DNA of 39,628 nucleotides, taken from assembly GCA_029260255.1 (NCBI GenBank), contig JAJDDR010000052.1, positions 1 to 39,628 of the forward strand, written 5' to 3'. The notes beneath the pieces were generated by a model. It searched no databases. It was not told where the DNA came from and was given only the letters and a program-made list of their open reading frames with translations. Made by a program: the position numbers and the translations under genes. The DNA comes from Phycisphaerae bacterium. Lineage in GTDB: Bacteria > Planctomycetota > Phycisphaerae > UBA1845. Below are positions 21,958-31,077 of the stretch, piece after piece; the stretch's first letter is position 1; every line of letters starts with the position of its first letter.

Positions 21958-22140
21958 ATGCTCGAAGTCACCGGGATCACCAAGAAGTATCCCGGCGTAC
22001 TGGCGCTCGACCGCGTCGATTTCGACGTGCGCGCCGGCGAGGTGCATGCCCTGGTCGGCGAAAACGGCGCCGGCAAGAGCACGCTGGTCAAGGTGCTCGG
22101 CGGTGCCCATCGTCCCGATTCCGGTACGGTTCGTCTCGAC
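21958..22140 (+). pseudogene. RbsA-like sugar ABC ATPase, first 61 codons only
   Basis: ATG 21958, 11 bases after the binding-protein stop, begins an ordinary sugar ATPase N-terminus: [36 protein letters not shown] (Walker A, residues 34-42) and [11 protein letters not shown]. After codon 61 the frame turns to unrelated sequence because the rest of the ATPase gene, normally about 500 codons, is gone and permease sequence follows in another frame. The fragment lacks the signature and Walker B motifs, so it cannot hydrolyse ATP. Confidence 0.85.
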
Positions 22141-22699
22141 GCTCGCCATGCTCACCATCGCGCGCGGCGTGGTGCTGCATTTCACCGGAAGTCGCTCCGT
22201 GTCAGGACTCCCCGAGACATTCGGAGACTTCGCGTACGGCGATGGGGCTATCTACCTCATGTTCGCACTGTTCATCGTCGCCTGGCTCGTGCTGACGCGG
22301 ACGCCTTTCGGACGCCACGTGTACGCGGTCGGCGGAAACCCCGAAGCCGCACGCCTCTGCGGAATCAAGGTCGATTGGGTTCTCCTGCGCGTCTACGTCA
22401 TCAGCGGCGCACTTGCGGGTCTCTCAGGCGTCTGGCTGACCGCAAGACTCAACGTCGGTGATCCCAAGAGCGGCGCGTTGATGGAGCTCGACGCCATCGC
22501 CGCGGTCGTCGTCGGCGGAACGAGCCTCATGGGCGGTCGAGGCTCCATCTGGGGGACGCTCATCGGAGCGCTCGTCATCGGCGAGTTGAACAACGGGCTC
22601 AACCTCCTGCAGGTCGAGTACTACAGCCAGAAGATCGTCATCGGCATCGTGTTGGTATTGGCCGCGTTCCTCGATCGGTTCCGGACGCAGGATCAGTAG
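22130..22699 (+). pseudogene. RbsC-like sugar permease, C-terminal 189 residues only
   Basis: In the +1-shifted frame the sequence from 22130 reads [20 protein letters not shown] and continues through [38 protein letters not shown] and AAVVVGGTSLMGGRGSIWGT to a normal permease end (LDRFRTQDQ). This is the C-terminal part of a ribose/xylose-type BPD_transp_2 permease that is normally about 320-330 residues; the first 120-140 are missing. Hydrophobic helices are preserved. An ATG at 22046 or 22150 could start translation, but the product would lack the N-terminal helices and its ATPase partner. Confidence 0.85.
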
Positions 22700-22892: not shown

Positions 22893-25800
22893 TCACCGTG
22901 TCATCATCGGCGGACCAAGCAGGTCCTTTTTCGCCGGCAGATGCGGTTTCGGCCGATTGCGGAACTTCTCGTAGCTCTCGGTGTGCATGCTCGACAGATC
23001 GATGGGCACGCCTTTGATGAACATGTGCGTCACCTTCGAAACCGTCTGAGTCGGCTGATGCGTCGTCACGATGACGTCGGCCTGCTTACCCGGTTCGAGA
23101 GAGCCAAGCCTATCCGCAACACCCAGTACGTCCGCCGCTCCGAGCGTCAAAGCGTGGATCGCGCGATCCGGGTCGAGCCCGTGCGCCACGGCCATCCCCG
23201 CTTCGATGCCAAGGTCATACGCGTTCGATGCACTGTCGGACGCGAAACACCATCGAACACCCGCGCGGTCCAACGCCCCCGCGCACGCATAGACCGAGTC
23301 CCAGGCCTCGAACCGTCCCCCGGGGTAACTCGTCACCTTGGCGAGAATCACGGCGATGTTCTTCTCCGCCAGAACGTCCGCCAGCTTCCACGCCTCCCTG
23401 CCGCCGGAGATGATCGCCGTGAGATCGTGCTTCTCCGCGAACGCGATCGTGTCGAGAATCTGTTTGTAACTCGATGCGTCGAACACAACCGCCTTCTCCC
23501 CGCGAACGTACGGGACCATCGACTCGAGCCGGAGATCCCGTGATTCGACGCGTCCGGGCTCCACCGCTCGTGCCGTATACTGCTTCGCCCGATCCATGAA
23601 GGCGTCGAGTTCGCGCAGCGCCTTCTCGTGCTCCTTCTTCCTGGTTTCCTTCGTCTCCACCGTCAGACGCACCGGCAGGCTCGGAACCGTCATGTGCAAT
23701 CCGACGCGGTCCGCGATGAGCATCTCGTCCATCGTCCAACCGCTTAGATTGACCAGACAAGATTGACCCGAAATCCTGCCGCCGGTCGGTGTCACCAACT
23801 GCGACGTCACGCCGCCGCTGTGGGCGATGCGAATGTGCGCACTGTGCGGATGGACCGCCGACGCCGTACGCAGTTCCGGAGCAAACTCCGCGATATCGAA
23901 GCCGTCACGAGTAGCGCGAAGGCTCCCGACCTCCGTAAGCCCCAAAGACCCTGACCCGTCGATCAATCCCGGGTAGACGTGCAGACCCGTCGCGTCCAGC
24001 ACGCCCGCCCCCGGCGGAACGGCCACATCGCCGCCAACCTCAGCGATGATCCCATTCCTAACGACCACCGTTCCATTGGGTATCGATTCAGACGATACCG
24101 GATGTACCGTTCCGCCCACCACGGCGAACAGTCGGTGCGGCGAGATCGGAAGCGACGGGTCGAACGGCTTGTTCCATTCGAGCGCGCCGGCATCGCGCGC
24201 CCCGGCCGCGCCTTTCCCTTCGAAATAGACCTCGCCTTCGATCAGGGTCATGACGTTCCGGCTGAACGTGTTCAGCGGGTGCCCGTCGAAGATCGCCAGA
24301 TCGCCGTCCTTGCCCACCTCGACGCTTCCCAGCCGGCGCTCGAGCCCCAGTTGAATCGCGGGATTCAGCGTCACAAGTCGCAACGCCGCGTTCGCGCTCA
24401 TGTCGCCCCAGCGGATGCTCTTCGCCGCTTCAACGTTCAGATACCGGATCGTGTTCGGAGAGTCCGAGTTTATCGAGGAGATGATCCCCTGCTCGGTCAT
24501 CAGTGCCGCGTTCTGCGGTATCGCGCCATAGGCCTCCACCTTGTATGCCCAGTAATCTGAAAAAGACGACGCGCCGGCTCCGTGCCGCGCGATCTCCGGT
24601 GCGACGCGATAGCCTTCCAGCACGTGTTGCAACACCCCGACGCGAATCCCGAAGTCCTCAGCCACGGACAGCACACGGACGATCTCGTCACTGCGGTAAC
24701 AATGCACATGCACCCAGATGTCACCGGTCAGAACGCGCGCGAGCGCTTCCAACCGAAGGTCGCGGCGCGGACTGAGAACGTCCCGCCCGGCCGCCGACTC
24801 CAAGCGGTAACGCTCCCACGCCGCCGCGTACTGCTGCCCCGCGAGCAGCGCGTCGCGGATGACCGCCTCGACACCCATGCGACCGTTCGGAAAACGCTTC
24901 CCGTGCGCGTTGGGCGAGTTCGACTGCTTGACGTTTTCGCCAAGCGCCCACTTCATCGTCGGCGGCGCATCGCGAACGATCATCTCCTTCACCGGACGCT
25001 TGTACTTCAGCTTGAAAACGACGTTCTGACCTCCGATCGGATTCGCCGACCCGTGCATCGCGTGCGTCGTCGTCGTCCCGCCGGCCAGTGCGCGGTAAAT
25101 GCCCAAATAGTCGTTGCGCACGGTGTCTGCGACCCGCACCTCCGCGGTCACCGACAGCGACCCTTCGTTGACACCGTCAACCGCCATGTGGGAGTGGCAG
25201 TCCACCATGCCGGGCATCACGAAGCGGCCGGCGGCATCGATCACGGTGACACCGGGCGGCACGGTCAGGTCCGGTCCGATCTCCACGATCTTGCCATCGC
25301 GGATCAATACGGAAGTCTCCGCGAGCACCGGTCCTGACACCGTGATGACCGTCCCGTTACGGATCAGCACGTCGCCGCCAGTGTGAATCTTCGGAATGCG
25401 GTCGGACTCAATCTCACACCGCCAGACAACGTCGTCGACATCCGTCGCACCCGGTTCCACCGCCGCGTCCGCAATCTCGTCGGACTCGTCCTCCTCCGGT
25501 GCATCGTCCGCGGCGTTCGATTCGGCGGGTTTCGCTTCGCCGTTGTATTCTGTCTTCTCGCCGTCCACGATGACGTAACGGGTCTTGGTTTTCTTGTCAC
25601 TCAGCGGCCGCGTCATCACGACGATATTCGCGGCGTACCCCGGCTCGATGAGTCCCAGCTGTTGCTCGAGGTGAAACAGCTCGGCCGGTGCCCGCGACAG
25701 CGCCGCAATCGCGGCATCGACCGGCAAACCGCGATCCAGGACCTTACGCAGATTCTCCAGGAATTCCTCCGGCTTCTCGAAGCCCCGCGTGCTCAGAGAA

Positions 25801-26921
25801 AACTCGACTTCCGACTCATGAAGCCGAATCACATTGGCCACCTGCTCTTCCCAAAGACGCCGCCGCTCTTGCCGCAGCTTCAGCGGCTCATAGACACGAT
25901 CCTCCTTCGCCGTGTCCTTCTTGCCCTTCTTCGAGCCCGCGTTCTCCTTCCCGTATTCCGGTTCCTCATCGAACTTCAAACTGACGATCAGCGGCACGCC
26001 GTCCGACTTGATCCGACCGATCACCTTGTACGCTTCCATGGCACCGCTGATGATGACCCGGAGATCGAACTCGCCGGCGAGGTCCAGCGCCCGGCGAATC
26101 TCATGCTCGCTGTTTGCCTCGAAGATCAACGGCATGTCGCCGGTCAAGAGCGGTCTCAGCGCGACGATCGCCGCGTCAACCGGTGGTCTCTCGGCTTGCC
26201 GCGGGTGGCGCTCGTAGTACCGTTCCACTTCCACCGAACGCTGCGAATCGAGCAGGACCTGCCGAAAACTCGCGAACGCCCCGAGCAGCGACCGCGGGTA
26301 TTCTCCCGGCTCCCACGGCTCGAACGACGCGTGCTGCGCCACTCCGGTAGACACCAGCGCCCGCCGCAACGGCGCGCCGGAGAGGTTGACCAGCGCGCTC
26401 GTCCCTCCGAGTATCCCGCCCCGCGGCGCAGCGAGCACGGTCGTGAACCCCGACTTCCGAAACGCGTCAATCGCATCGACGCTACCGTCAAAATGTTCGT
26501 GAGCCGCGAATTCCGGGTGGATCCCGCGACGGTTCGCCGCGCGCGTCTCAGGCAGCGCTCGCTGGCGATGGTCGGGGTTCGCGTCCTCCACCCGCTGCCG
26601 GTCTTCTTCGCTTCGCGGCTCATCGGCCATACCCAGTTGTGAATGCGCCGAGATGAACCCCGGGTACGCGATCATGCCGGACGCCTCGATCACCTCGGCA
26701 CCCGCCGGCGGCGACAGATCGCGCCCGACATCGACGATGCGCCCCCGCTCGATGAGGATGACGCCGTTCTCGATGATTGTCCCGTCGCCCGTGACCACCG
26801 TCGCGCCGGTGATCGCCAACGGAAACTCAACTTCTCCCGCCACGCGCCCCGCCATCACCAGTGAAAAGACGACGGCGACGGCACATCGACTGAACCCCTC
26901 CGAAAATCGAGAACCGCGCAT
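22893..26921 (-). CDS. Secreted triple amidohydrolase-like fusion protein (1342 residues)
   Basis: ATG 26921 starts a signal peptide (CAVAVVFSLVMAGRVAGEVEF). Three amidohydrolase/imidazolonepropionase-like modules follow. Module 1 (about 35-460): TVVTGDGTIIENGVILIERG, AYPGFISAHSQLGM; it has H93 but lacks the second His of HxH. Module 2 (about 515-905): GTVITVSGPVLAETSVLIRD, VMPGMVDCHSHMAVDG with H576/H578, later H738/H740 (WVHVHCY), H766 (QHVLEGY) and D820 (INSDSP), a complete metal-site pattern. Module 3 (about 930-1335): GTVVVRNGIIAEVGG, YPGLIDGSGSLGL without HxH, WCFASDSASNAYDLG near the end. Only module 2 appears catalytic, with modules 1 and 3 as degenerate relatives. An acidic linker (APEEDESDEIAD) separates modules 1 and 2. 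Substrate unknown. Confidence 0.9.
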   Translation of the reverse strand: MRGSRFSEGFSRCAVAVVFSLVMAGRVAGEVEFPLAITGATVVTGDGTIIENGVILIERGRIVDVGRDLSPPAGAEVIEASGMIAYPGFISAHSQLGMADEPRSEEDRQRVEDANPDHRQRALPETRAANRRGIHPEFAAHEHFDGSVDAIDAFRKSGFTTVLAAPRGGILGGTSALVNLSGAPLRRALVSTGVAQHASFEPWEPGEYPRSLLGAFASFRQVLLDSQRSVEVERYYERHPRQAERPPVDAAIVALRPLLTGDMPLIFEANSEHEIRRALDLAGEFDLRVIISGAMEAYKVIGRIKSDGVPLIVSLKFDEEPEYGKENAGSKKGKKDTAKEDRVYEPLKLRQERRRLWEEQVANVIRLHESEVEFSLSTRGFEKPEEFLENLRKVLDRGLPVDAAIAALSRAPAELFHLEQQLGLIEPGYAANIVVMTRPLSDKKTKTRYVIVDGEKTEYNGEAKPAESNAADDAPEEDESDEIADAAVEPGATDVDDVVWRCEIESDRIPKIHTGGDVLIRNGTVITVSGPVLAETSVLIRDGKIVEIGPDLTVPPGVTVIDAAGRFVMPGMVDCHSHMAVDGVNEGSLSVTAEVRVADTVRNDYLGIYRALAGGTTTTHAMHGSANPIGGQNVVFKLKYKRPVKEMIVRDAPPTMKWALGENVKQSNSPNAHGKRFPNGRMGVEAVIRDALLAGQQYAAAWERYRLESAAGRDVLSPRRDLRLEALARVLTGDIWVHVHCYRSDEIVRVLSVAEDFGIRVGVLQHVLEGYRVAPEIARHGAGASSFSDYWAYKVEAYGAIPQNAALMTEQGIISSINSDSPNTIRYLNVEAAKSIRWGDMSANAALRLVTLNPAIQLGLERRLGSVEVGKDGDLAIFDGHPLNTFSRNVMTLIEGEVYFEGKGAAGARDAGALEWNKPFDPSLPISPHRLFAVVGGTVHPVSSESIPNGTVVVRNGIIAEVGGDVAVPPGAGVLDATGLHVYPGLIDGSGSLGLTEVGSLRATRDGFDIAEFAPELRTASAVHPHSAHIRIAHSGGVTSQLVTPTGGRISGQSCLVNLSGWTMDEMLIADRVGLHMTVPSLPVRLTVETKETRKKEHEKALRELDAFMDRAKQYTARAVEPGRVESRDLRLESMVPYVRGEKAVVFDASSYKQILDTIAFAEKHDLTAIISGGREAWKLADVLAEKNIAVILAKVTSYPGGRFEAWDSVYACAGALDRAGVRWCFASDSASNAYDLGIEAGMAVAHGLDPDRAIHALTLGAADVLGVADRLGSLEPGKQADVIVTTHQPTQTVSKVTHMFIKGVPIDLSSMHTESYEKFRNRPKPHLPAKKDLLGPPMMTR

Positions 26922-27047
26922 TCAGCGCCTCCTGCGTAGTCGTTTCGGAATCCAATTGCCCGCCCACGCACCGCGCGGCGACACGAGGCTCGCATCGTGG
27001 GCAACCAATCTAGTGGCAGGCGCACCCCATGTCGACAGCGACGCCAC

Positions 27048-27194
27048 GAGCGCGGGGGTGTGGCCATTCTTTGTGGCATCGTCGGCCGGGCACATGCGGT
27101 AGAGCGGGTTTTACCCGCCGCAATCGTGCAAGAAGGCGGGTCGAACCCGCCCTACCCTTGGCATGCCACAATCGCTGGTCACACCCCGAGCGCG
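27048..27194. mobile_element. MITE copy B (133 bp, 27055-27187) with 7-bp target-site duplication
   Basis: The reverse complement of the core at 782-914 with a single substitution. Direct repeats GAGCGCG flank it at 27048-27054 and 27188-27194; these differ from the CGCTCCT duplication of copy A, showing independent insertions. It lies between the divergent starts of the amidohydrolase and FAD genes, 64 bases before the FAD start, and may affect their promoters. Confidence 0.92.
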
Positions 27195-27250
27195 GACGAT
27201 TCCGTACACACGGTTGCATCATCGCCCCCAACCGCGACAATGAACCGACC

Positions 27251-28882
27251 ATGGCACTGTTGGTCCGCAACATCAAACTCGCGCTGGACGAGCCCGAGGA
27301 CCGGCTCGCCGCCGCGGTCGCAAAGCGACTCAAGGTCTCCCGCAGCGCCATCCGCGCGTACGCCCCAGTGCGGCGATCTCTCGACGCGCGCGTCAGGACC
27401 GAGATTCACTTCGTCTACCACGTCGAGGTTGCGCTCGACGGGGGGCAGCGCGATGAACGCAGATGCGTGCAACGGCTCTCGTCCCGAGACGTTATCGAAC
27501 TACGCCCGGAAACGCCCGCCGAGCCCGCGCCCGGGCGCGAAACGCTCAGAGAAAGACCCATCATAGCGGGCTTCGGCCCGGCCGGGATGTTTGCCGCCCT
27601 GCGACTGACGCAATTCGGCTACCGGCCGATTGTGCTCGAGCGCGGAGTTGATGTGCGCCGCAGGCACCGTGACGTTCTCGAAAAATTCTACCGACAACGC
27701 GAGTTCAACCCCCAGTCCAACCTGCTGTTCGGAGAAGGCGGCGCGGGAACCTACAGCGACGGCAAGCTCTACACCCGCGTCAGCGACCCCCTCGCCGGAA
27801 CCGTGCTGAAGTGGTTCTACCGCCACGGCGCCGACCCCGACATCCTGACCGACGCCAGACCGCACATCGGTAGCGACAGGCTGCCGTCGATCTGCAAGGA
27901 CATGCGCGAGCACGTCGAACGTGAGGGCGGGCAGGTCTGCTTCGAATCGCAGGTCTCGGATCTCGTCATCGAGGACGGCGATGTCAGAAAGATCCTCGTC
28001 AACGGACAGCCCCGACAGGCAGGACCCGTCATACTCGCCATCGGGCACTCCGCCCGCGACACGACGCGCATGCTCCACAAGTGCGGCCTGACCGTCGAAC
28101 CGCGCCCGTTCCAGCTCGGCGTACGCATCGAACACCCGCAAGCGCTCGTCGACCGCTGGCAGTACGGTCAGATGGCCGGGCACGACAGGCTGCCCCCCGC
28201 CGAATACCACGTCGTCGCCAAAGGCGCCGCGGGCGACGGACGCGATTGCTACAGCTTCTGCATGTGCCCCGGCGGCATGATCCTGCCGACGATCGAAAGC
28301 CACGGTCTCATCGCCACCAACGGCGCCAGCAAAGCCAACCGCGGCAGCGGCTTCGCCAACAGCGGATTGGTCGTCACCGCTCCCCCAGTGAGCGGCACTG
28401 GCAACGGCGGAACGGCGAGCAACCCGCTCGCCGGCATCGACGTGCAGCACGGCCTGGAGAAGAAGGCGTTTCTCGCCACCGGTGAAACCTACGAACTCCC
28501 CGCCCAGAGAGCCACCGACTTCCTTGCCGGACGCCCATCGGACGGCGCACTCCATGTAAGCTATCCGCTCGGCGGCCGATGGACCGACATCCGCACGATC
28601 ATCCCGCCCGACATCAGCGCCGCCATCGCCAATGCGCTCGAGTTTCTGGATCGTAGAATGCCCGGATTCGCCGGCGCGGACGCCATCGTCACCGCTCCCG
28701 AAACCCGCGTCAGCTCCCCCGTTCGCTTCCCGCGAGACAAGGAACGCCGCACGCTCGAAGGCACCGACAACCTCTACGCCGCCGGAGAGGGAGCCGGCTA
28801 CGCGGGCGGCATCATCAGTGCCGCGATCGACGGCATCAAGACCGCCGACGCGATCATCGCGCGCTACGCACCGCCGGAGTAG
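27251..28882 (+). CDS. FAD-dependent dehydrogenase (COG2509-like NAD(P)/FAD oxidoreductase)
   Basis: ATG 27251 gives 543 residues. After an N-terminal domain of about 100 residues (LVRNIKLALDEPEDRLAAAV) there is a dinucleotide-binding motif IIAGFGPAGMFAALRL and the segments NLLFGEGGAGTYSDGKLYTR, PVILAIGHSARDTTRMLH and a CPGGMILPT block, ending with NLYAAGEGAGYAGGIISAA, which binds FAD. This is the pattern of the widespread uncharacterised COG2509 dehydrogenases. The reaction is unknown. It is divergent from the amidohydrolase gene with the MITE between them. Confidence 0.9.
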   Translation: MALLVRNIKLALDEPEDRLAAAVAKRLKVSRSAIRAYAPVRRSLDARVRTEIHFVYHVEVALDGGQRDERRCVQRLSSRDVIELRPETPAEPAPGRETLRERPIIAGFGPAGMFAALRLTQFGYRPIVLERGVDVRRRHRDVLEKFYRQREFNPQSNLLFGEGGAGTYSDGKLYTRVSDPLAGTVLKWFYRHGADPDILTDARPHIGSDRLPSICKDMREHVEREGGQVCFESQVSDLVIEDGDVRKILVNGQPRQAGPVILAIGHSARDTTRMLHKCGLTVEPRPFQLGVRIEHPQALVDRWQYGQMAGHDRLPPAEYHVVAKGAAGDGRDCYSFCMCPGGMILPTIESHGLIATNGASKANRGSGFANSGLVVTAPPVSGTGNGGTASNPLAGIDVQHGLEKKAFLATGETYELPAQRATDFLAGRPSDGALHVSYPLGGRWTDIRTIIPPDISAAIANALEFLDRRMPGFAGADAIVTAPETRVSSPVRFPRDKERRTLEGTDNLYAAGEGAGYAGGIISAAIDGIKTADAIIARYAPPE

Positions 28883-28913: not shown

Positions 28914-30794
28914 CTAGTGCGGTGTTCCCGTGAAGGCGCGTTGGAACGCGGCGAAGTCGAGAACGTCCACGTCGTCGTCGGCGTCGAAGTCCTTGGCGCT
29001 GCAGCCGGTCTCGACGGGTCCGCCACCGGGTCCGGTCGCGCACGAGATGAACGCCGCATAATCATCCAGATCGGCGTCGCCATCTCCATCGAAGTCGCCC
29101 GCCAGCAGCTCGATCGTATGCTCCGCGCTCTCCATCAACTGTCCGTAGTCAGGCGGCTGGAGGTCCGCCAACGGGTTGCCGTGACCGTCCTCCTCCCATT
29201 GCTTCATGTCAGTCAAGGGGCGGTACGCGCGACGATAAATGAGCCGGGCGCGAACTTGCACCGGTCCGCCGCCGCCGGGCACCGAAAATGTGTAGTTCGT
29301 CGTGTCGCTCTGCGTGGCCGGGATGCGGTTGTCGAACGCGATGCCCGTCGCCTCGGTGCAGAACGTGGGCGCCATGCCGTCGGCGTTGTGAAGGACCTTG
29401 GCGTACAATTTGCCGGCAAGCCCGGCGTAGTACCCCTGAGCCGGGTCGCCCATCCCTCCCAGCATGTGTACCATCTGCGCACCCGTGTGCGCAAGGGTCA
29501 GCCCGTCCTGCGGCCGCCACGCCTCCACCAGGAGAATCATGTTCCGCATGATCGCACCGGTCGGAACGTGGTGACCGGTCTGCGTGTTCGCGATTCGGAC
29601 CTCGACTTCGATGTCGTTCCCGGTACGCTGGGTCGTCATGTGCAGATCAACCGCCATTTCGAGGTACACCGGAGTGGTCCCGCGGATGTCGTGCGAGCGG
29701 ATCGTGTCGCTGTCGCGCGGGTAATCGATGAACCCGCACACCTGCGTCGAGCCGTATGGCGGCATGTGACACGTCACGCAACTCTTGTACTCGGGCGAGT
29801 CAACGACACCGTAAGGACTCGAAGCCCATTCGCTGTACGTCGACTGAACGAGAACACCCGTAAACGTCTGGTCCCCGGCAGGGTCGTTCCTGTACTGGTG
29901 GCATACGGCGCAGACTTCAGCCACTAGCTGCGGCTGATACGAGGGACGCATCAGGTCGTATTCCCAGAAGCTCACATCGCCGAGCACGCCGTACTGGACC
30001 TGGGGAAACCAGGGCCTCGTCGGCCGCGTGTGCTTCACCACGCCAGGGTAAATTCCGGGAAAATGAAGCTTGGACTCGTCCACGTCGGCGATCTTGTGAC
30101 ACACGTCGCACAGAACACCGTGCACCGACGCCGGCGTGGGCGGCGCCGTTGGATCGGCCAGCGCCGTGAACGGCTCCACGATCCAGCCTTCCGGTTGGTG
30201 GCACGCGGCGCACTGCGCGTTCGGGTTGCTCGCGGCATGCACCGAGTCGCGTTGGTAGACGAATCCGCCCATCCCGCCGGGCGTACCCAGACCGCTGTAC
30301 ATGTCGTGTACCCATGTGTTGATCCCGGCGTTTCCCATCGGCATCGAATACCACTGCTGGGCTTGATCCGGATGACACATCTCGCAGAACTCCGGGCTCG
30401 CCAGCGCGTACTTGGGGTCGTTCATCTCGGGAACACGATCAAGGCTGATCTCGATGGGCCCTGTCGGCGCGTCCACAATGACGGATCCGTGGAAGTACCC
30501 CTTCTTGGCGGCGACGATCACCAAGTCGAACGAACCGGTTGTCCGCAGCGTGAATGTACCATCCGCCGCCGTACGAGTCCGCAAACCGACCGCCTGTTGG
30601 GATACGAGCGCATCGCTCAGCGGCACGAGGCTCCCGGCTTCGAGCACCACGCCCGACACTTCGTCGCCGAAAGCGGTCAATCCGCCCGGCGCAAACAGAG
30701 CAACTGCCACTGCCAGCAACGCCCTTCCCGAACTAGAACTTCTGACCGCGACGCCGCCAACGGACATCTTCGCCACACGCTGATATGCACTCAC
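28914..30794 (-). CDS. Secreted five-haem cytochrome with carboxypeptidase-like domain and dockerin-like C-terminus
   Basis: GTG 30794, with AGGGGG-like sites upstream, gives 626 residues; ATG 30827 is an alternative. A signal peptide (ALLAVAVALFAPGGLTAFG) precedes a small carboxypeptidase-regulatory-like beta domain (VSGVVLEAGSLVPLSDALVS, about 46-120). Five CxxCH haem sites follow: CEMCH 137-141, CAACH 195-199, CDVCH 229-233, CAVCH 295-299 and CVTCH 339-343. A beta-rich region comes next, and the last 60 residues carry two dockerin-type calcium loops (DFDGDGDADLDDYAAF and DFDADDDVDVLDFAAF). It would act outside the cytoplasmic membrane in electron transfer. The donor and acceptor are unknown. 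Confidence 0.88.
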   Translation of the reverse strand: MSAYQRVAKMSVGGVAVRSSSSGRALLAVAVALFAPGGLTAFGDEVSGVVLEAGSLVPLSDALVSQQAVGLRTRTAADGTFTLRTTGSFDLVIVAAKKGYFHGSVIVDAPTGPIEISLDRVPEMNDPKYALASPEFCEMCHPDQAQQWYSMPMGNAGINTWVHDMYSGLGTPGGMGGFVYQRDSVHAASNPNAQCAACHQPEGWIVEPFTALADPTAPPTPASVHGVLCDVCHKIADVDESKLHFPGIYPGVVKHTRPTRPWFPQVQYGVLGDVSFWEYDLMRPSYQPQLVAEVCAVCHQYRNDPAGDQTFTGVLVQSTYSEWASSPYGVVDSPEYKSCVTCHMPPYGSTQVCGFIDYPRDSDTIRSHDIRGTTPVYLEMAVDLHMTTQRTGNDIEVEVRIANTQTGHHVPTGAIMRNMILLVEAWRPQDGLTLAHTGAQMVHMLGGMGDPAQGYYAGLAGKLYAKVLHNADGMAPTFCTEATGIAFDNRIPATQSDTTNYTFSVPGGGGPVQVRARLIYRRAYRPLTDMKQWEEDGHGNPLADLQPPDYGQLMESAEHTIELLAGDFDGDGDADLDDYAAFISCATGPGGGPVETGCSAKDFDADDDVDVLDFAAFQRAFTGTPH

Positions 30795-31077
30795 GCTTCC
30801 CCCTTCGTCGCATTGCGCCCGTGTCATTTTACCCCCACCCTTCCTGCGCTCGGACAACCCGGCGTGTTGAACGCCATTCGGGCTTGTCAGGCGACCTCCG
30901 GGACGTGCCGCGGAGCCGGGCGACGACACGCATCCAACAGAAACGCCCTCCGTGACCGGTCGATCGGATGATCCTCGACGGACCGAAACTCCGAAGTAGT
31001 TACCTTGCTTAAGAATAGCACCTGCCGGGGTCGGATGCAACTGCAAACGAGATCCGCGATCACCCGGAATGGCTTGA

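Follow-up and report, generated by a model that had tools for sequence, protein, structure and literature searches.

Why should one bacterial protein carry three amidohydrolase-like modules when the metal ligands of a working site can be recognized in only one of them? This question is raised by a gene of a Phycisphaerae bacterium found in the window, that is, the whole stretch of 39,628 nucleotides that was analysed. A first-pass annotation had described its product as a secreted protein in which only the middle module is catalytic, and had proposed that the flanking modules act as scaffolds, inhibitors or binding domains.

Module architecture and metal sites

The open reading frame at 22893-26921 (minus strand) comprises 1342 codons, starts with an ATG at 26921, preceded by a ribosome site of the AGGAGG type, and is covered by alignments with 32 distinct relatives. 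The hydrophobic, signal-peptide-like N-terminus agrees with the earlier description of a secreted protein, and the product is probably exported, as judged by hydropathy of the sequence. PF01979/PF07969 were matched in three stretches of the protein (152.8 and 126.3 bits), the modules share 24-27% pairwise identity (E 4e-15 to 8e-28), and profiles, each made from 20 relatives of one module, found the same best solved structure for modules 1, 2 and 3 (E 1e-41, 3e-68 and 4e-62, respectively), namely PDB 3ooq, a Thermotoga maritima amidohydrolase (TM0814). The three amidohydrolase-like modules described earlier are thus confirmed. The features are as follows, all on the minus strand:

22893..26921, minus: gene for the 1342-aa three-module amidohydrolase-like protein (open frame, AGGAGG Shine-Dalgarno, relatives in 145 loci)
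26835..26921, minus: residues 1-29, signal-peptide-like N-terminus with core CAVAVVFSLVMAG (hydropathy)
25512..26834, minus: module 1 (residues 30-470), inactive barrel and composite beta-sandwich, with an insert at about 318-345 (3ooq profile, model)
26637..26645, minus: beta-1 metal motif position of module 1, H93-S94-Q95, second His lost (alignment)
25389..25511, minus: acidic linker (residues 471-511) joining modules 1 and 2, of low model confidence (sequence, and pLDDT <50 at model residues 435-465)
24207..25388, minus: module 2 (residues 512-905), catalytic barrel (3ooq E 3e-49, profile E 3e-68)
25188..25196, minus: H576-S-H578, beta-1 metal ligands (kept in 144/145)
24951..24953, minus: K657, beta-4 Lys, expected to be carboxylated and metal-bridging (kept in 145/145)
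24702..24704, minus: H740, beta-5 ligand (kept in 145/145)
24624..24626, minus: H766, beta-6 ligand (kept in 145/145)
24462..24464, minus: D820, beta-8 ligand and putative general base (kept in 145/145)
22986..24140, minus: module 3 (residues 928-1312), inactive barrel and composite domain (whole-length 3ooq profile match, E 4e-62)
23946..23954, minus: beta-1 metal motif position of module 3, S990-G-S992, both His lost (alignment)

The closest sequence relative, 3ooq, shares with module 2 the K-x-x-x-G-E-N and G-S-A-N-P-x-G-G-Q motifs and the ligand motifs of strands beta-1, 4, 5, 6 and 8, and in the tree module 2 is placed next to 3ooq and the pairA genes, which assigns it to the 3ooq (TM0814-like) subfamily. 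However, 3ooq consists of one module, whose site is live; the literature searched yielded no paper on it. The COG1228-type prolidases and arginine/lysine carboxypeptidases (3feq/3n2c, 3mkv, 3mtw) have the same fold and metal chemistry, but they are distant (15-19% in Foldseek alignments) and likewise single-module. None of the NCBIfam equivalogs, such as Xaa-Pro dipeptidase or imidazolonepropionase, scored above its curated cut-off, the best scores being 126 versus 391, 118.6 versus 500 and 108 versus 298 bits. A metal-dependent bile salt hydrolase (PMC13081902) was also considered and set aside, since it belongs to another subfamily and has one amidohydrolase domain.

Modules 1 and 2 of the window protein were modelled together by AlphaFold2 (896 residues, 67 sequences; pLDDT 90.5, pTM 0.90) as full barrels joined by a disordered linker, and a shorter orthologue carrying nearly all of the three modules was modelled as well (1200 residues, 30 sequences; pLDDT 87.2, pTM 0.88). 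Eight-strand barrels with sandwich strands are present in both, so that the (beta/alpha)8 barrel and composite beta-sandwich of the amidohydrolase superfamily appear in all models; module 1 of the window is predicted to be complete, as are all three modules of the orthologue. Foldseek aligned 3ooq to one module at a time, with a TM-score of 0.89 on its length, and these single-module alignments matched no known arrangement of two barrels. Circular permutation, or one barrel split between the flanking modules, was ruled out, because 3ooq is matched along the length of every module and each is modelled as a complete barrel. The high pTM across modules indirectly suggests a defined joint arrangement in the predicted structures, a value that the tandem homologous modules may inflate.

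It is well established that the HxH pair is needed for metal binding in amidohydrolases. The six metal-site positions were set by aligning the modules to 3ooq and to one another. In module 2, the previously noticed H576, H578 and D820 were confirmed and are joined by K657, H740 and H766, which gives this module the whole binuclear set. The corresponding positions are H93, Q95, H197, E268, Gly and Arg in module 1, where the beta-5, beta-6 and beta-8 ligands are gone, and Ser, Ser, His, Asp, Gly and Asp in module 3. The earlier statement that both flanking modules lack HxH therefore holds for module 3, which reads S-G-S, and needs amendment for module 1, in which the pair is broken but H93 is kept, some relatives even having H-x-H there. 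Other HxH triplets, at 141 and 1024, lie off the beta-1 position and form no conserved pair.

Conservation, layout and ancestry of the trio

Among 294 sampled Planctomycetota genomes, 113 contain a relative (counted at E 1e-70 or better). All six ligands are present in 144 of the 145 middle modules compared, the exception being a frameshifted fragment, and the set is lost in all 259 flanking modules: 87 of the first modules (n=129) have none of the six and the others three at most, and 78 of the third modules (n=130) have none and the others at most two. Since this pattern is found in 144/145 middle modules and in no flanking module, chance is excluded, and the comparison supports the claim that, of the three modules, the middle one alone is equipped for catalysis.

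One could suppose that module 1 or 3 is itself catalytic by means of an unusual, different metal site. In the window, module 1 offers H93, a His in place of the Lys (H197) and a Glu in place of the beta-5 His (E268), and His occupies the Lys column in 48/129 first and 50/130 third modules. However, the H-H-H-E pattern occurs in just 5/129 first modules, the beta-6 His is Gly in 95-97% of flanking modules (123/129 first and 126/130 third) and the beta-8 Asp is mostly absent. A search of modules 1 and 3 for conserved His, Asp, Glu or Cys columns found no replacement ligand set, so that ligands from other positions do not appear to stand in for the HxH, and such a site is very improbable. Modules 1 and 3 are therefore members of the superfamily by fold that do not carry its catalytic ligands (HxH, K, H, H, D). 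With the fold kept, the catalytic residues lost and the gene under constraint, they would be classed, on these alignments, as pseudoenzyme copies.

The constraint on the flanking modules also bears on whether they are leftovers of a former enzyme with three sites, now decaying and without a role. They do evolve faster than module 2, the mean identity in the same 20 relatives being 49% for module 1, 53% for module 3 and 68% for module 2. On the other hand, dN/dS in closely related pairs is well under 1 in modules 1 and 3 (0.02-0.16, with 0.02-0.10 in module 2), and the fixed order described below has been retained across phylum-wide divergence, even where the modules are separate signal-bearing genes. 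Decay is thus strongly disfavoured and is the least probable of the explanations weighed.

Purifying selection on modules 1 and 3 would equally be expected if they bound a substrate or surface, holding a polymer, peptide or cell-wall ligand and feeding it to module 2 through their old pockets or new surfaces. Each has near-invariant residues of its own (Y, P, A, R, Q and D at columns 677-694 in module 1; E at column 583 in 99% of third modules), which could serve such binding. However, conservation in module 2 peaks at the pocket columns (mean entropy 0.77 versus 1.66 elsewhere), whereas in module 1 (2.40 versus 2.28) and module 3 (2.21 versus 2.04) these columns are conserved no better than the remainder, which makes a shared ligand in the old pocket unlikely. 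Additionally, mere binding would not need so strict an order relative to module 2. Binding modules are accordingly an unlikely explanation, though one that retains some weight.

As an observation apart, the Y-P...A..R-Q...D motif of module 1 (columns 677-694 of the module 2 alignment) is partly common to module 2 (R689) and represents a candidate interface helix.

The survey of the triple order in planctomycetes verified that the same dead-live-dead order recurs, either fused or as adjoining genes, and is never reversed. Among the 145 loci, all modules are fused in 61; in 48, modules 1 and 2 are fused with module 3 adjoining; in 20, module 1 adjoins fused modules 2 and 3. The remaining 16 are for the most part truncated at sequence ends, without one flank or the Bacteroidota case. 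The real exceptions are L075, a locus in a complete genome where no module 3 lies within 500 bases, and four loci that have no module 1 and in which module 3 adjoins module 2. Signal-like N-termini are found on most of the separate genes (40/41 for module 3, 17/18 for fused modules 2 and 3, and 8/10 for module 1), and the separate parts would therefore reach the same compartment. The recurrence of the same trio and order across planctomycetes suggests that the enzyme needs its two dead barrels and that these are not products of decay.

Whatever the layout, modules 1, 2 and 3 each form one clade (SH-aLRT 100, 100 and 99), and these clades take in a module 2 and a module 3 from Bacteroidota; the Hymenobacter module 1 was too fragmentary and was omitted from the tree. 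The lineages with modules 1 and 2 fused and module 3 adjoining form matching subgroups within all three clades. Since each module is a single clade, the trio is ancient, and since the clades are independent of layout, it predates the fusions or fissions, and its parts have been kept together. One Bacteroidota record with the trio was found, a Hymenobacter volaticus plasmid (L065). It has the modules in the same order, with frameshifts in modules 1 and 2 and module 3 in two frames, and represents either a decaying copy or sequencing errors.

A proposed pseudo-trimer around one catalytic barrel

The explanation that we consider best, and somewhat favour overall, is that the protein is an exported metallo-amidohydrolase whose catalytic barrel works as part of a pseudo-trimer, shaped or stabilised by two pseudoenzyme barrels. 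Hydrolysis by bridged metals is the established chemistry of the amidohydrolase superfamily, and COG1228 enzymes act on peptides or N-acyl amino acids. As an exported binuclear-metal member of the 3ooq (TM0814-like) subfamily, the protein would bind two divalent metals in module 2 via H576, H578, carboxylated K657, H740, H766 and D820; carboxylated K657 and a hydroxide would bridge the metals, D820 would act as the base, and an amide-type bond would be hydrolysed. By analogy with the COG1228 enzymes, peptides or N-acyl amino acids would be the likeliest substrates. Modules 1 and 3 are predicted to pack with module 2 into the pseudo-trimer, standing where identical partner subunits sit in ordinary homo-oligomeric amidohydrolases, and would thereby keep the catalytic barrel stable and contribute to the form of its active-site entrance. 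The three modules, the metal set confined to module 2, the order, the co-inheritance, the purifying selection and the signal-like N-termini come from sequence comparison, the joint packing is a prediction of the models, and we infer that this packing is the purpose of the dead modules. Of the three roles proposed in the first-pass annotation, the evidence leans to the scaffold, or pseudo-subunit. Against the pseudo-trimer, module 1 is weakly conserved in some lineages, and a few loci lack module 3 (L075) or module 1 (four loci).

Dead enzyme copies are best known as eukaryotic regulators, and the trio would represent an ancient bacterial case of such copies. It could be supposed that modules 1 and 3 likewise regulate module 2, for instance by covering the active site until a ligand or a cleavage frees it. 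They flank the catalytic module on both sides with the same fold, and dead paralogues elsewhere activate or inhibit live ones; in the trypanosome AdoMetDC/prozyme pair, a live enzyme is paired with its own dead paralogue and is allosterically activated (PMC5201418). As this pair has another fold and is eukaryotic, it serves as a precedent only. However, the modules can also be encoded by separate genes, next to which no regulator was noticed, and regulation appears improbable. For the pseudo-trimer, the nearest likeness is the Pseudomonas aspartate transcarbamoylase (ATCase), whose activity depends on an inactive amidohydrolase-fold chain, a pseudo-dihydroorotase, within a fixed complex (PMC7053772). 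It differs in that the pseudo-chain supports an unrelated enzyme, the ATCase, not a live paralogue, and the two chains are distinct subunits of a dodecamer. A search that was thin on subscription journals found no paper describing tandem or inactive amidohydrolase modules of the trio kind; the fold and the metal site are known, and the fixed ancient dead-live-dead arrangement is new as far as the literature was searched. Since the trio occurs both as one protein and split at either border, the need for the dead copies and their fit are directly testable. In annotation, a large share of the planctomycete genes labelled 'amidohydrolase' in these loci cannot be the enzyme.

Live-dead gene groups and neighbouring genes

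Related arrangements were observed in the same planctomycete group. In six of six loci (L041, L042, L045, L047, L049 and L050), a live single-module amidohydrolase (HxH, K, H, H, D) shares a two-gene operon with a dead one. Three others, L043 (2067-14936), L044 (1771-15028) and L046 (459-13974), have eight consecutive amidohydrolase-like genes in the same direction, with nine modules, only one of which in each array has a complete metal site; their gene order looks alike. The Asp of the arrays and of 3ooq was read from D-A-P and D-H-P strings, offset by one alignment column. The live gene of the array type is present in 14/40 genomes of the family, the array layout itself having been read in three. 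As in the trio, one live module stands beside dead paralogues, but the proportions differ (one to one in pairs, one of nine in arrays) and the pair genes fall in clades distinct from the trio modules.

A broader reading, somewhat less than evenly probable in our estimate, is that planctomycetes, and at least one member of the Bacteroidota, build exported amidohydrolases as obligate assemblies of one catalytic and several dead paralogous barrels. The dead-live-dead trio, the live-dead pair and the nine-module operons with a single live module would, just as tentatively, be forms of one such design. If so, an ancestral homo-oligomer would have given way to a hetero-oligomer in which the dead barrels are structural subunits.

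The flanks of the trio loci that were read show no pathway, and hence no operon partner revealing the substrate, and contain a recurrent divergent gene for a FAD-dependent protein (window, L013 and L016). In the window this gene lies at 27029-28882 (plus strand; PF21688), divergent from the trio gene, and a similar-looking gene stands at the same place in L013 and L016, possibly as a conserved neighbour. At 28914-31046 (minus strand), the window encodes a multihaem cytochrome-like protein that looks exported, matches MtrC/MtrF domain II/IV and has a C-terminus resembling a dockerin, GDFDGDGDADLDDY. At 21958-22699 (plus strand), right behind a substrate-binding protein gene, a sugar-type ABC transporter ATPase is truncated at roughly residue 60 (positions 1-54 of the 137 in its Pfam profile) and continues, in a different frame, as the C-terminal portion of a permease (positions 84-268 of the 269 in that profile), which points to either an internal deletion or a misassembly of the draft genome.
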